DNA from: Bacteroidota bacterium
Lineage (GTDB): Bacteria; Bacteroidota; Bacteroidia; Chitinophagales; Chitinophagaceae
Direction: 5' to 3'
NCBI GenBank assembly: GCA_005798905.1
Contig: SYIK01000012.1
Span: 62,001 to 126,000 of the forward strand
DNA length: 64,000 nt
Both the position numbers and the translations under genes were made by a program. The notes beneath the pieces were generated by a model. The model searched no databases and had not been told where the DNA came from. It saw nothing but the letters and a program-made list of their open reading frames with translations. Shown here in pieces: positions 21,642 to 27,232 of the stretch; position 1 is the first letter of the stretch; every line of letters starts with the position of its first letter.

Positions 21642-23123
21642 TTGAGTAGTATAAAAAAACTTGCACAACAAACCGCTTGGTATGGACTAAGTAATGTAGG
21701 CGGAAGATTTTTAAATTACTTGCTTACTTTTTTGCATGTGTATCTGTTTAAAAGTGCGGAATATGGCGATGTATCTATCTTTTATGCGAATGCGGCATTG
21801 TTAAGTATTCTTTTTTCTTATGGAATGGAAACAGCTTATTTCCGTTTTGTACAAAAAGAAAAACAACCTTATTCCGTTTATTCCACAGGATTTTTTTCAT
21901 TATTTGGAACTTCCATTTTATTCACTGCTGCTATTTTATTTTATCGTCAACCATTGGCGGATTTTATGCACATAGAAAATAATCCGGAATGGATTAGTTG
22001 GCTTGCATTAATTGTGGCAGCAGACACTCTTGCTGCTTTACCGTTTTGTGTTTTGCGTCAACAAAACAAACCGCGCAAATATGCATTTATCAAACTCGTA
22101 AATATTTTTTCAGTCATTGGATTACAACTTGTTTTTTTCTGGCTTTTCCCAATTTGGTTTAATACGACAGTGAATATTGGTTATGTTTTTCTTGCAAATT
22201 TGATTGCCAGTATTATCACACTTTTATTGCTTTCAAAAGAGTTGCTACTTGTAAGTTGGAAGTTTGATAAAAAGTTAAGAAACGAAATGATAATCTATGC
22301 GCTACCATTGATTATAGTGGGTTTTGGCGGAATGATAAATGAAACCATCGACCGACAATTAATACTCCATTTTTTTAATGGCACAGTTGAACAAGCGAAA
22401 TCAGCAAACGGAATTTATTCTGCAAATTACAAATTAGCAATATTGATCATTCTGTTCATTCAAGCATTTCGGATGGGTGCTGAACCTTTTTTCTTTCAAC
22501 AAGCTGAGAAAGAAGATGCGCCAAAAATTTATGCACGTGTAATGAAATTTTTTGTCATCGTTTGTTGTCTTTGTTTTTTGTTCATCGTTTTATTTCTCGA
22601 TGTGTGGAAACTTTTACTTACTACCAAATATCCCGAATACGCACAAGGCATTTTAATTGTTCCAATTCTTGCTTTGTCTAAAATATTTTTAGGAATTTAT
22701 TACAATCTTTCCATCTGGTACAAACTCACGGATAGAAATAAATTTGGTGCGTGGATTACAATTGGCGGGGTTGCAATTACCGTTTTATTTAATATAATTT
22801 TTATTCCGCAAATTGGATATTTTGCTTGTGCAATCGCCACCCTTCTTTGTTACAGTATTATGCTTGTTGCAAGTTATTTATTGGGACAAAAATATTATCC
22901 GGTGCCTTATGATTGGAAAAAACTTTTGACGTATATCAGTTGTGCTGTTTTGCTATTCGGCGTTCATCGTTTGTTTATATCAATCAGCACTAATATTTGG
23001 ATTAATTGCGCTTTAGCTTTTTTACTGATGGGAATATTTGCAACTTATATTATCTCCGTTGAAAAGAATGAATTTGAAAAAATACCATTTCTTAAAAAAA
23101 TAGTAAGGCCATTTACATTTTAA
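21642..23123 (+). CDS. Polysaccharide/lipid-linked oligosaccharide flippase (MATE/Wzx-like)
   Basis: A roughly 493-residue integral membrane protein with about 12-14 helices, belonging to the MOP flippase superfamily (polysaccharide biosynthesis protein). I chose the TTG at 21642 because it gives MSSIKKLAQQTAWYGLSNVG, the usual start of these proteins, whose IKKLA-x-QTAWYGLS segment precedes helix 1; a TTG at 21603 would add 13 residues. Such proteins flip undecaprenol-linked sugars across the inner membrane. No glycosyltransferases are adjacent, so the substrate is unknown. The 3' end overlaps the convergent metallo-hydrolase by four bases. Confidence 0.88.
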   Translation: MSSIKKLAQQTAWYGLSNVGGRFLNYLLTFLHVYLFKSAEYGDVSIFYANAALLSILFSYGMETAYFRFVQKEKQPYSVYSTGFFSLFGTSILFTAAILFYRQPLADFMHIENNPEWISWLALIVAADTLAALPFCVLRQQNKPRKYAFIKLVNIFSVIGLQLVFFWLFPIWFNTTVNIGYVFLANLIASIITLLLLSKELLLVSWKFDKKLRNEMIIYALPLIIVGFGGMINETIDRQLILHFFNGTVEQAKSANGIYSANYKLAILIILFIQAFRMGAEPFFFQQAEKEDAPKIYARVMKFFVIVCCLCFLFIVLFLDVWKLLLTTKYPEYAQGILIVPILALSKIFLGIYYNLSIWYKLTDRNKFGAWITIGGVAITVLFNIIFIPQIGYFACAIATLLCYSIMLVASYLLGQKYYPVPYDWKKLLTYISCAVLLFGVHRLFISISTNIWINCALAFLLMGIFATYIISVEKNEFEKIPFLKKIVRPFTF

Positions 23124-23764
23124 CTTTCTTTCACAAAAGGATTATTCATTTTTTCGTACCCAATCGTAGTTGCGGGTCCGTGACCCGAATAAACTTTCGT
23201 TTCATCGGGCAGAGTAAAAAATTGTGTTTGAATACTATTAATTAAGGTTGAAAAATCGCAACCGGGAAAATCTGTTCTTCCAATGCTCCCTTTAAATAAA
23301 ACATCACCTCCAATAATATATTTCCCTTCTTTGTTATAATAACTAACGCTACCTGGCGAGTGGCCCGGTGTAAATCGAATTTCCAATTCATCTTTGCCAA
23401 TCGCTATTTTAGTTCCTTCATTTATAAAACTTAATTCGGCATCGTAATTTTCAAATGGCAACTGGTACATTGCTCCAGATTGCGGTGCAAAACCTAAAAC
23501 CGATTTTTCTTTTTCGTGAATATGTAATGATAATTTCCAAGTTTCATAAACAAATTTGTTTCCAAAAACATGATCTAAATGGCAATGTGTATTGAGTAAT
23601 AATAGTGGCTGCAGGGACTCTTCGTCTATAAACTTTTTCAACTCCAATTTTTCTTCCGAAAAATAACAGCCTGGGTCGATAATACAACACTGTTTTTCCT
23701 CGTTGTACAAAACATAGGTATTTTCCTGAATAGGATTAAATGTAAAGACTTTAACACTTAACAT
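23120..23764 (-). CDS. MBL-fold metallo-hydrolase (glyoxalase II-like)
   Basis: A 214-residue soluble enzyme of the metallo-beta-lactamase fold. The metal motif H-x-H-x-D-H is at residues 60-65 (THCHLDHVFG). Further ligands are in FTPGHSPGSVSYY (about residue 132) and IGGDVLFKGSIGRTDF (about 151), and the last histidine is in VYSGHGPATTIGYE near the end. This fits the glyoxalase II-like branch, with the GRTDFPG segment shared by these hydrolases. The real substrate is not shown. It could act on S-D-lactoylglutathione or another thioester. Confidence 0.92.
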   Translation of the reverse strand: MLSVKVFTFNPIQENTYVLYNEEKQCCIIDPGCYFSEEKLELKKFIDEESLQPLLLLNTHCHLDHVFGNKFVYETWKLSLHIHEKEKSVLGFAPQSGAMYQLPFENYDAELSFINEGTKIAIGKDELEIRFTPGHSPGSVSYYNKEGKYIIGGDVLFKGSIGRTDFPGCDFSTLINSIQTQFFTLPDETKVYSGHGPATTIGYEKMNNPFVKES

Positions 23765-23866: not shown

Positions 23867-26800
23867 ATGAAACAATTTTTAAAATCATTTTTTCTTTTGC
23901 TTGTATTTTTTGTTTCTAAACATGAAATTTTCGCTCAAGTGAGTACGGTAGAATTTGGGAAAAACAGAGTTCAATATCAAAACTTCAAATGGAAATATTA
24001 TCAAACCAATAATTTCAACACTTATTTTAGTCAAGATGGATTGGCTTTGGGAAAATATGTTGCACAAATTGCGGAAAAAGAATTGCCGGCGCTCGAAGAA
24101 TTTATCGAATACGGAATGCAACGAAGAGCAAATATTATTGTGTACAACAATTTCGAATCATTTCAACAAAGCAATATTGGAATTGGAATTGACTGGCAAA
24201 ATACAGGCGGTGTAACCAAATTAGTCAACAATAAAATTGTCGTTTTTTTTGATGGTAATCACGAAAATTTAAAGCGTCAAATAAAACAAGGAATCGCAAA
24301 AGCACTTGTTGACAATATGTTATTTGGTGAAGACTTGACAGAATTTGCTGCCAACCAAGCTTTGTTAGATTTGCCACTGTGGCTTACTTCAGGATTTATT
24401 TCTTATGCTGGAGAAAACTGGAGCACTCAATTGGATGATGAATTAAAATCGGCAATGTTGAGCGGACGTTATAATAATTTTTATCAATTAGCACACGAAA
24501 AACCGCTACTTGCAGGGCATTCTCTATGGCGTTTTATTGGTGATAAATACGGAAAAAGCAAAACCACTTATATGCTTTACCTCAGCCGCATTTATCGAAA
24601 TTTAAATGCCGCTACTTTCAAAGTAACGCAAAAGAAAAAATTTAAATTATTACTTCAAGATTTTATGACTGAGGAGAGTCAGAAATATTTTAAAGACATT
24701 CGAGGAAGAAGAAATGTTCCGAAAGGACAGCTTTCTGTTTCTGAATTAATTGATAAAAAAGATTTCATTCGTTTTAATGCAAATCCTGTTCCCAGAAGTA
24801 TGACTTGGGCGGTTGTCGAATTCAAACACAACAGATACAGCATTGTATTGAATGAAAATTTTGTTAGCAGAAAAGTAATTTTAAAATTAGGAACTCGTGT
24901 TCGCGAAGAAGAAAAAAATCCCAACTATCCAATTCTTGCTTGGGATGGAAAAGGATCTCGATTAGCAGTTTTGTACAGCGAAGAAGGAAAAATAAAACTA
25001 TTCGTTTACGATGTGGTGAATCGTATAAAAATTCAAAAAGTAGTACTGACACAATTCAGTCAGGTACAGGATATGAAGTACATGTTGGATGCAAACACAC
25101 TTTTGTTTAGTGCTGTAAAAAGTGGGCAAACAGATCTTTTTGTTTATAAATTAGACAAACAATCTGTTGAGCAAATTACGAATGATGTTTATGATGATTT
25201 GGATGCATCCTTTGTAACTTTTCCCAATAAAACAGGAATCATTTATGCAAGTAATCGACCATCAGCAACAGCTGTAAGTTCCGATGATTCATTACCAAGT
25301 AGCAAGTTCAATATCTTTTTAGTGGACAATTGGAATCAATCTGAGTTTAAACAAATTTCACAACTCAGCAACTTAAAACAAGGCAATGCTCGATTCCCTT
25401 CGCAATACAATACAACTCATTTTACTTTTACAAGTGATGCCAATGGAATCAACAATCGTTTTGCTGGATTTTTCAGTACCCAAAAAGATGGATTAGATAC
25501 CTTGGTTTATGTTGGCGATGAAATATTACACAATCCCGATCAACAAGAAGTAGATTCTGTATTAAAAGATTGGGATAAAATAGATGTTGACTCCATTGGA
25601 TTTTTCTCGGTTTCCTCCGATTCTGCTTATGTCTTTCCAATCACTAATTATCAAAGTAGTTTGTTAGAAACAAGAACTGCCGGAAGCAATCAACTAACAA
25701 GTGAAGTAGTTCGGCAAGGAGATTTTAAATTTTTATACCGATTGAAAGTAGATGAAAATGTACTTCGTCGTAGAAATGTTGTAGTACGATCAACCGAATA
25801 TGTGAAAAAATTAATGGAAGAAGAAAAATTTTCTTCAAAAGAAATTGACCTACCCGTTCAACTTGATTCCACAATAATTAACCAAGCAGATTTTTTTCAA
25901 AGTGAATTTGCACAAGAGAAAAAAAATGAATTATTGCCAATCATACAAACTGATTTAACTAATTTATCAAAACCTAAAACTGTTTTAGACAATGTAAAAT
26001 TGTTTGAGTACCGTCCTTCAAAATTTTTCAATGATTATTTAGTAAGTGGATTTAACAATAATGTTTTAGTAACGCGTTATCAACCTTACGGCGGTGGCAT
26101 TGGCCCAATAAAACTCAGCAATGGCAATGCTTTTAATGGCATTATGCGCATTGGCACTTCCGATTTATTGGAAGACTGGAAATTTGCCGGTGGTTTTCGA
26201 TTCAGCCCCGATTTTAAAGACAACGAATACGTTTTATCAACGCAGTACCTTAAAAAAAGATTTGATTACGGATTTACTTATTATAGAAATAGTAGCCAAC
26301 TTTCGCTGGTAGGCAGTGGCATTAGTTTCAGTGGAAAAATGTTCACCAATCTTTATCAAGGTTCGGTGGCTTATCCTTTTAACCGTTCAAAAAGTATTCG
26401 TGTAAACATTGGTTATCGTTCCGACAGAATTGTTGTATTGGCAAATGATGTAATTGCGCCACCATTAACATTATTGCTCGAAGACCAAGTAAATAAATAT
26501 GGTCTTTTGCACGCTGAATTTGTACACGATGATGCCATCAATAAAACGTTGAATATTTGGAATGGACTTCGTTATAAATTTTTTATTGATTGGAATTCTC
26601 GAATCAACAAAACAGTATTAAAAACGAATCCTTACACATTTAATTTTGGTGGCGATACGCGATACTATTTACCCATTTATCGCAATATGATTTGGGCCGT
26701 TCGTGGAGCTTTTGATATTTCTTGGGGACCACAAAAAATTATTTATTACTTAGGTGGTGTTGACAATTGGCTCTATCCAAAATTCAATGATGGCAATCGA

Positions 26801-27232
26801 CCTGATCCTGATTCGGATTATTCATTTCAAAGTTTAGCAGTAAATCTCAGAGGATTCAATCAAAATGTTGCAAATGGCAACAATGCATTTATCCTCAATA
26901 GTGAAATTCGCCTACCTGTATTTACAACTTTTTTAAATAGACCGATAAATAATGCGCTGCTTCGAAATTTTCAATTGGTACAATTTTTTGATTTGGGAAC
27001 AGCATGGAATGGTGCTTATGATAAAATTGAACGACCAGCTGTTGTTTACGGTCAATCTCCATTAACTGTAAAAATAAAAGCAGGTGGTATTGGTCCATTT
27101 GCAGGTGGGTACGGCTTTGGTGTACGCAGTACGTTGTTGGGCTATTTTTTAAGATTGGATGCGGGTTGGGAAATGAATGGATTTTTTAAAGAATCCCCAT
27201 TGTTGCACTTAGCAATGGGGTTAGATTTCTAA
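23867..27232 (+). CDS. Composite envelope protein: degenerate peptidase-MA-like domain, TolB-like propeller, C-terminal outer-membrane barrel
   Basis: A 1121-residue protein with a signal peptide (MKQFLKSFFLLLVFFVSKHEIFAQ). Residues about 35-290 look like a gluzincin (peptidase MA-like) domain: NTYFSQDGLALGKYVA, a region where the family has HExxH but this protein has IKQGIAKALVDNMLF, and LPLWLTSGFISYAGENW, matching the family P-x-W-x-x-E/S-G-x-x-x-Y element. The catalytic HExxH is not present, so it is probably inactive. Residues about 300-600 contain repeats typical of TolB-like propellers (WDGKGSRLAVLYSEEG, YASNRPSATAVSSDDS). From about 720 to the end, the sequence has alternating strands with terminal phenylalanine (GLDF), resembling the surface-antigen (D15) beta-barrel family. 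It is probably an outer-membrane protein of unknown function. It starts 103 bases from the divergent metallo-hydrolase and ends 21 bases before glpK; a hairpin overlaps its last codons. Confidence 0.78.
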   Translation: MKQFLKSFFLLLVFFVSKHEIFAQVSTVEFGKNRVQYQNFKWKYYQTNNFNTYFSQDGLALGKYVAQIAEKELPALEEFIEYGMQRRANIIVYNNFESFQQSNIGIGIDWQNTGGVTKLVNNKIVVFFDGNHENLKRQIKQGIAKALVDNMLFGEDLTEFAANQALLDLPLWLTSGFISYAGENWSTQLDDELKSAMLSGRYNNFYQLAHEKPLLAGHSLWRFIGDKYGKSKTTYMLYLSRIYRNLNAATFKVTQKKKFKLLLQDFMTEESQKYFKDIRGRRNVPKGQLSVSELIDKKDFIRFNANPVPRSMTWAVVEFKHNRYSIVLNENFVSRKVILKLGTRVREEEKNPNYPILAWDGKGSRLAVLYSEEGKIKLFVYDVVNRIKIQKVVLTQFSQVQDMKYMLDANTLLFSAVKSGQTDLFVYKLDKQSVEQITNDVYDDLDASFVTFPNKTGIIYASNRPSATAVSSDDSLPSSKFNIFLVDNWNQSEFKQISQLSNLKQGNARFPSQYNTTHFTFTSDANGINNRFAGFFSTQKDGLDTLVYVGDEILHNPDQQEVDSVLKDWDKIDVDSIGFFSVSSDSAYVFPITNYQSSLLETRTAGSNQLTSEVVRQGDFKFLYRLKVDENVLRRRNVVVRSTEYVKKLMEEEKFSSKEIDLPVQLDSTIINQADFFQSEFAQEKKNELLPIIQTDLTNLSKPKTVLDNVKLFEYRPSKFFNDYLVSGFNNNVLVTRYQPYGGGIGPIKLSNGNAFNGIMRIGTSDLLEDWKFAGGFRFSPDFKDNEYVLSTQYLKKRFDYGFTYYRNSSQLSLVGSGISFSGKMFTNLYQGSVAYPFNRSKSIRVNIGYRSDRIVVLANDVIAPPLTLLLEDQVNKYGLLHAEFVHDDAINKTLNIWNGLRYKFFIDWNSRINKTVLKTNPYTFNFGGDTRYYLPIYRNMIWAVRGAFDISWGPQKIIYYLGGVDNWLYPKFNDGNRPDPDSDYSFQSLAVNLRGFNQNVANGNNAFILNSEIRLPVFTTFLNRPINNALLRNFQLVQFFDLGTAWNGAYDKIERPAVVYGQSPLTVKIKAGGIGPFAGGYGFGVRSTLLGYFLRLDAGWEMNGFFKESPLLHLAMGLDF
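27195..27220 (+). terminator. Possible terminator hairpin at the end of the 1121-aa gene
   Basis: An 8-base-pair stem (CCCCATTG ... CAATGGGG) with a 10-base loop lies just before the stop codon, followed by T-rich DNA (TTAGATTTCTAATTCTTTTATT). It could reduce read-through into glpK. It may also be a chance result of the coding sequence, because it lies inside the gene. Confidence 0.35.

Follow-up and report, generated by a model that had tools for sequence, protein, structure and literature searches.

An Omp85 barrel protein of the class Bacteroidia with a TolB-like propeller and a gluzincin-fold domain that has lost its zinc site

The machinery which builds the outer membrane of Bacteroidota differs from that of E. 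coli, and parts of it are still being found. Omp85 proteins have assembly or translocation as their general function (PMC4104836). One of the ten Omp85 subfamilies distinguished by Heinz and Lithgow in 2014, named WD40-Omp85, combines a TolB-like propeller with the barrel and has no POTRA domain, and these authors proposed for it a role similar to that of BamA and BamB (PMC4104836). A further Omp85 protein, TamL, is the known TamB partner in Bacteroidota, and in F. johnsoniae the two proteins are purified together (PMC12045153). Operons containing both tamB and bamA have been interpreted as pointing to a complex (PMC4494059). A peptidase with a dual role is known from E. coli, where BepA not only degrades LptD but also promotes its assembly, using an edge strand next to the active site for both (PMC8423444).

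The gene described here encodes 1121 amino acids and lies in a window of 64,000 nucleotides (contig SYIK01000012.1, positions 62,001 to 126,000, assembly GCA_005798905.1, Chitinophagaceae). An initial annotation of this DNA had described an envelope protein in which a peptidase-like domain, a propeller and a barrel follow each other, and all three domain calls were upheld. The domain order was correct as well, equal thirds being only an approximation of the model-based boundaries listed in Table 1. The same annotation did not recognise the architecture, but a POTRA-less Omp85 barrel preceded by a propeller whose closest resemblance is to TolB had already been named WD40-Omp85 in 2014 (PMC4104836), and judged by the description of the subfamily the 1121-residue protein has this architecture. 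What sets it apart, again compared by description, is the gluzincin domain, which the section text on WD40-Omp85 does not name (PMC4104836). In the open-licence literature (articles without preprints or supplements) nothing was found in print on the peptidase domain, on the loss of its zinc site or on the linkage to tamB described below. The anatomy of the protein including its dead zinc site can be regarded as practically certain.

Table 1. Positions in the window of the gene, its encoded domains and motifs, and the divergent neighbour
Feature	Position	Strand	Basis
Whole gene, 1121 aa	23867..27232	+	ORF with ATG start; one copy in the genome
Signal peptide (residues 1-23) without lipobox Cys; mature protein from Q24	23867..23935	+	Q24 invariance, Q-rule
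Gluzincin-fold (Peptidase_MA-like) domain, residues 26-285	23942..24721	+	domain model, fold match, Peptidase_MA_2 scores of relatives
Dead zinc site Q141-G142-I143-A144-K145	24287..24301	+	HExxH in relatives outside class Bacteroidia
S175 replacing third-ligand Glu	24389..24391	+	alignment
TolB-type beta-propeller, residues 286-640	24722..25786	+	sequence and structure match
Fast-evolving, poorly ordered low-confidence linker, residues 641-710	25787..25996	+	pLDDT, conservation, dN/dS 0.055
Omp85-type barrel without POTRA, residues 711-1121, terminal Phe	25997..27229	+	model, structure match
LRGF (994-997)	26846..26857	+	R995 and G996 in 166/166 aligned
N-x-E-x-R-x-P (1011-1017), strand following loop 6	26897..26917	+	E1013 165/166, R1015 166/166
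Divergent metallo-beta-lactamase (MBL)-fold hydrolase gene	23120..23764	-	PF00753

The own genome (1.86 Mb, 19 contigs, 99.68% complete) yields this one match only. The signal peptide is predicted to be cleaved after ...FA and before Q24, a residue present without exception in the 63 rows of the close-relative alignment A1 and the 24 rows of the diverse alignment A2, and a glutamine at the mature N-terminus is what the Bacteroidetes Q-rule predicts (PMC10653852). With A23-Q24 at the signal end, a lipoprotein signal of the TamL kind is absent. Searches of Pfam gave nothing above cut-off for the protein itself; matches to Chordopox_E11 and DUF5962 were both below cut-off and were taken as chance. 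No solved chain found by sequence search spans more of the protein than the propeller. The full-chain model, calculated from the 63-row alignment, has a mean pLDDT of 75.5 and a pTM of 0.74. A strong terminator-like hairpin of 11 pairs is located at 27195-27220 within the last codons of the gene, ahead of glpK (27254), one of seven terminator-like sites found in the region where 2.5 were expected; for the neighbours glpK, glpD and glpF the ORF list was the only source. At one locus on a metagenome contig (L070, 105-2591) the gene is broken into reading frames of 533 and 259 amino acids by a frameshift or an assembly error.

The C-terminal region, previously called a D15-type barrel, was confirmed as such by a match to BamA of D. 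radiodurans (8xnb_A) with a Z score of 25.2 and an rmsd of 4.1 over 320 residues, further structure matches being BamA, TamA, Sam50 and FhaC (FhaC Z 20.4). The features of Omp85 membership which are present comprise the membrane barrel, the E-x-R strand and the RGF of loop 6, the LRGF being what we take to be the counterpart of the Omp85 loop-6 (V/I)RGF motif. PF01103 did not match the protein, either alone or in the search of its own genome. The NCBIfam model Omp85_fam matched the relative L169 at 5.7e-8, which is below cut-off, and the NCBIfam models TamL and TamA gave weak matches over the barrel of the relative L098. A POTRA match was not obtained for the 1121-residue protein, and the corresponding region of the model consists of propeller and linker.

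The earlier reading of the middle region as TolB-like agrees with a weak sequence match to TIGR02800 (TolB; E 2.3e-5) and with a structural match of the propeller in the full-chain model to TolB (4jml_A; Z 20.3, rmsd 3.0, 240 residues). The propeller fold is shared with TolB of the Tol-Pal system, but here it is fused to a barrel, and its 23.5 bits are far below the equivalog cut-off of 343.15 bits.

Modelled alone, the N-terminal domain reached a mean pLDDT of 80.7 and matched lugdulysin of family M30 (Z 13.2, rmsd 7.4, 228 residues), collagenase of family M9 (Z 12.9, rmsd 4.0, 225 residues) and PepN of family M1 (Z 12.0). For a helical domain, gluzincin Z scores between 11 and 13 are no more than moderate, and it is the sequence which carries the case for the fold. 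With Peptidase_MA_2 (PF13485, cut-off 32.4 bits), the relatives L097, L098, L105 and L179 score 56.4, 41.5, 48.3 and 54.1 bits, respectively, so that the fold match of the domain model and relatives above the Pfam cut-off together bear out the proposed peptidase-MA-like domain. The domain thus has the fold of the gluzincin peptidases but fails in HExxH and the downstream glutamate. In homologues from outside the class, which score above the Pfam cut-off, HExxH and the glutamate are intact, whereas in the 1121-residue protein all four key residues are replaced. The annotated replacement of HExxH was found as Q141-G142-x-x-K145 ... S175, and no intact HExxH occurs elsewhere in the domain.

The designation as a dead peptidase is correct for the branch of class Bacteroidia and wrong for the relatives in other classes, where the site is complete. 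From loci L001-L196, 166 non-identical proteins with a length of 1000 amino acids or more were aligned, shorter sequences and duplicates being excluded. HExxH and the downstream glutamate are kept in all 27 of these proteins from outside the class and absent in all 139 from within it. The catalytic glutamate (position E142) has become glycine in 118 of the 139. At the three remaining positions of the former site the residues vary widely between the families of the class, and no common set of histidine, aspartate, glutamate or cysteine substitutes for them. The sole HExxH among the 139 dead sequences, HEKLH in L129, is out of register with the zinc site. A later alignment of 16 divergent class proteins lacked HExxH in 12 and contained it in four, all from family f3. 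Members of this family (L201-L204, L251, L253), though from class Bacteroidia, have the identical architecture with a live HE(L/M)VH site. When 97 proteins, 30 with a live and 67 with a dead site, were placed on a quick tree, a single branch separated the two states (SH-aLRT 100), and the same split was obtained from 95 proteins without the peptidase domain (SH-aLRT 99), both trees being unrooted and several divergent rows forming long branches of uncertain placement. The f3 proteins group on the live side of the tree on a long branch, which makes reversals look unlikely, and they may have been acquired horizontally. Since HExxH is the state of the superfamily, the change in these unrooted trees is to be read as a loss, and one ancient loss of the zinc site with the domain retained for binding is very probable.

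The dead peptidase domain has the lowest dN/dS within the protein and is strongly conserved. In 10 close pairs from 6 groups, dN/dS was 0.016 for the dead domain and 0.002 for the site region (residues 132-182), as compared to 0.022 for the propeller, 0.021 for the barrel and 0.055 for the linker. The mean share of the majority residue in 63 relatives was 0.78 for the dead domain, 0.83 for residues 132-182, 0.74 for the propeller, 0.68 for the barrel and 0.48 for the linker. From these values it follows that the dead site is not decaying.

The family has a wide distribution, both within class Bacteroidia and among other classes of the GTDB phylum. A search with the 1121-residue protein matched 193 of 296 sampled phylum genomes (E 1e-5). 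With profile A2 at most 342 of 395 sampled class genomes match (1e-10), about 315 by hand count at E 1e-25 or better. The figure of 342 is an upper bound, because nine re-inspected weak cases (G029, G103, G118, G134, G238, G310, G415, G481, G546) match only model positions 287-562, which is the propeller, and were rejected as members. Family f5 had no convincing member among the class genomes examined, and as none could be found in many f5 genomes, the protein is not essential to the phylum. For the suggested restriction to Bacteroidota, the search beyond the GTDB phylum was made in plasmid records, none of which covers 80% of the query. The best of them, from plasmid pSR116 of Salinibacter ruber (L262, 3905-5806), is a 1902-bp gene annotated as 'basic secretory protein-like', which covers peptidase and propeller with no barrel and whose product is 33% identical over query residues 24-527.

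Within the class the constant neighbour is the MBL-fold hydrolase gene, which is present in 70 of 78 related loci and in 25 of 40 class loci. Outside the class, a closely spaced run of tamB, rnr and the barrel gene, in this order and all in one orientation, occurs in 11 of 27 genomes, covering 7 of 21 families. In four further genomes, of which two are truncated by a contig end, rnr is adjacent without a visible tamB; counting these, rnr adjoins the barrel gene in 15 of the 27. A visible tamB linkage is missing in 16 of the 27, which is explained by a contig end in G004 and G097. Linkage to tamB was found in none of the 40 class loci and none of the 78 related loci. With equal flanks of 4 kb, tamB was seen in 6 and rnr in 9 of 20 loci outside the class as against 0 of 40 for either gene inside. 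Pfam TamB confirms 7 of the 11 tamB genes in place, and the other four were assigned by similarity to those. The barrel is shared with TamA and TamL, but the 1121-residue protein lacks POTRA and lipobox, and the encoding in one run with tamB is confined to genomes outside the class. In two of the 11 genomes with the three-gene run (G042, G081), a second tamB lies directly against a POTRA-Omp85 gene of its own, so that each TamB there has a nearby Omp85. In the own genome tamB, tamL and the barrel gene are on three separate contigs. An outside-class genome (G078) contains an adjacent tamL-tamB pair (C16:352107-355847; TamL 798 bits) which scores like class pairs and may have been transferred, in addition to a TamB-like gene in a run of the tamB-rnr family on C6. 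Other annotated neighbours, namely the M20 peptidase and TauE genes downstream in the class, an FAD oxidoreductase (f8, f9, f10) and rnr, gave no functional lead by themselves.

Our tentative proposal is that the protein is a pseudoprotease acting as an assembly or quality-control factor of the outer membrane, which would grip or sort outer-membrane proteins rather than cut them. The Omp85-type barrel would be situated in the outer membrane with the TolB-like propeller and the gluzincin-fold domain presumably facing the periplasm. Its ancestor may have been a membrane-anchored zinc protease working on outer-membrane proteins under assembly, together with an inner-membrane bridge of the TamB type. 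The zinc site would then have been lost once near the base of class Bacteroidia, the domain being kept as a binding module. Propeller and closed groove could bind barrel or surface proteins which are unfolded or assembling incorrectly, without cutting them, and might present them to the seam of the Omp85 barrel itself, or to BAM or TAM. We infer the substrates, the interaction with TamB or BAM, the periplasmic orientation and the chaperone-like role. An assembly role is supported by the resemblance of the barrel to BamA, TamA, Sam50 and FhaC, assembly and translocation being what Omp85 proteins do (PMC4104836), and also by the live relatives with the ancestral type of site, the low dN/dS and the precedent of BepA. 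Like that M48 metallopeptidase at BAM, the protein would place a peptidase module with cutting and assembly-promoting roles at a site of barrel assembly, but BepA belongs to a different peptidase family and has no barrel of its own, and catalysis is lost in the 1121-residue protein. The tamB linkage outside the class provides one independent line for an assembly or transport function, and retention of the gene in a 1.86-Mb genome was counted for the proposal as well. It is weakened by the absence of the linkage in the class and by TamL being the known partner of TamB (PMC12045153). The f5 genomes in which no member could be found and the moderate gluzincin Z scores count against it as well.

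As rnr sits between tamB and the barrel gene, the cluster may be inherited gene order, and it is conceivable, though somewhat doubtful, that the order was simply frozen and that the protein has an unrelated envelope role such as the handling of lipids or glycans. The four genomes with rnr alone and the constant class neighbour, a cytosolic hydrolase gene, would fit such a history, but the three-gene order persists unchanged in seven families despite two differing gene sets upstream of tamB (aroK-aroB or two rfaE genes). At the other end, the linkage can be taken at face value, which we consider unlikely as a full account: the protein would have been the outer-membrane partner of TamB in the ancestor of the phylum, a POTRA-less Omp85 barrel whose propeller-gated zinc protease served as an assembly checkpoint, and linkage and catalysis would have been lost in the stem of Bacteroidia, where TamL serves TamB, leaving a pseudoprotease chaperone. 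A translocator of the PlpD or TpsB type, which would carry a partner or its own N-terminal domains to the cell surface, has the same class of barrel, as seen from the FhaC match, and in the Omp85 protein PlpD an enzyme domain is likewise found at the N-terminus (PMC4104836). This is nevertheless rather improbable, there being no POTRA and no recurrent cargo gene beside the barrel gene in the compared loci, and delivery of an effector makes little sense in a class where the enzyme is dead.

The nearest relative of the propeller by both sequence and structure is TolB, and a tether similar to Tol-Pal can be imagined in which the propeller binds a Pal- or OmpA-like lipoprotein and links the outer membrane to the cell wall, with the dead domain as a second dock. 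In the two f3 genomes checked (L251, L253) a gene for a PBP1A-like bifunctional penicillin-binding protein, with transglycosylase and transpeptidase, is directly upstream on the same strand, which would suit a tether. The chances of such a function appear small, as the propeller is far under the TolB equivalog cut-off, the N-terminal domain of TolB was not seen, the remaining Tol-Pal cluster was not found beside the barrel gene, and a whole Omp85 barrel would be superfluous for a tether. Finally, the domain in the class might not be dead but perform zinc-free or re-positioned chemistry conserved within Chitinophagaceae. The extreme conservation of the pocket among close relatives and the recurrent glycine in place of E142 could be understood in this way, but the variability of the three remaining site positions between class families, with no shared set of potential ligands, renders it highly improbable.

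If the pseudoprotease proposal is true, Bacteroidota would have in their outer membrane an Omp85 protein which belongs to the core, is mostly single-copy and has a pseudoprotease built in. Together with its live relatives in neighbouring classes it would form a natural pair of active and inactive proteins by which, in outer-membrane quality control, cutting can be told apart from holding. The linkage to tamB suggests a partner which can be tested.
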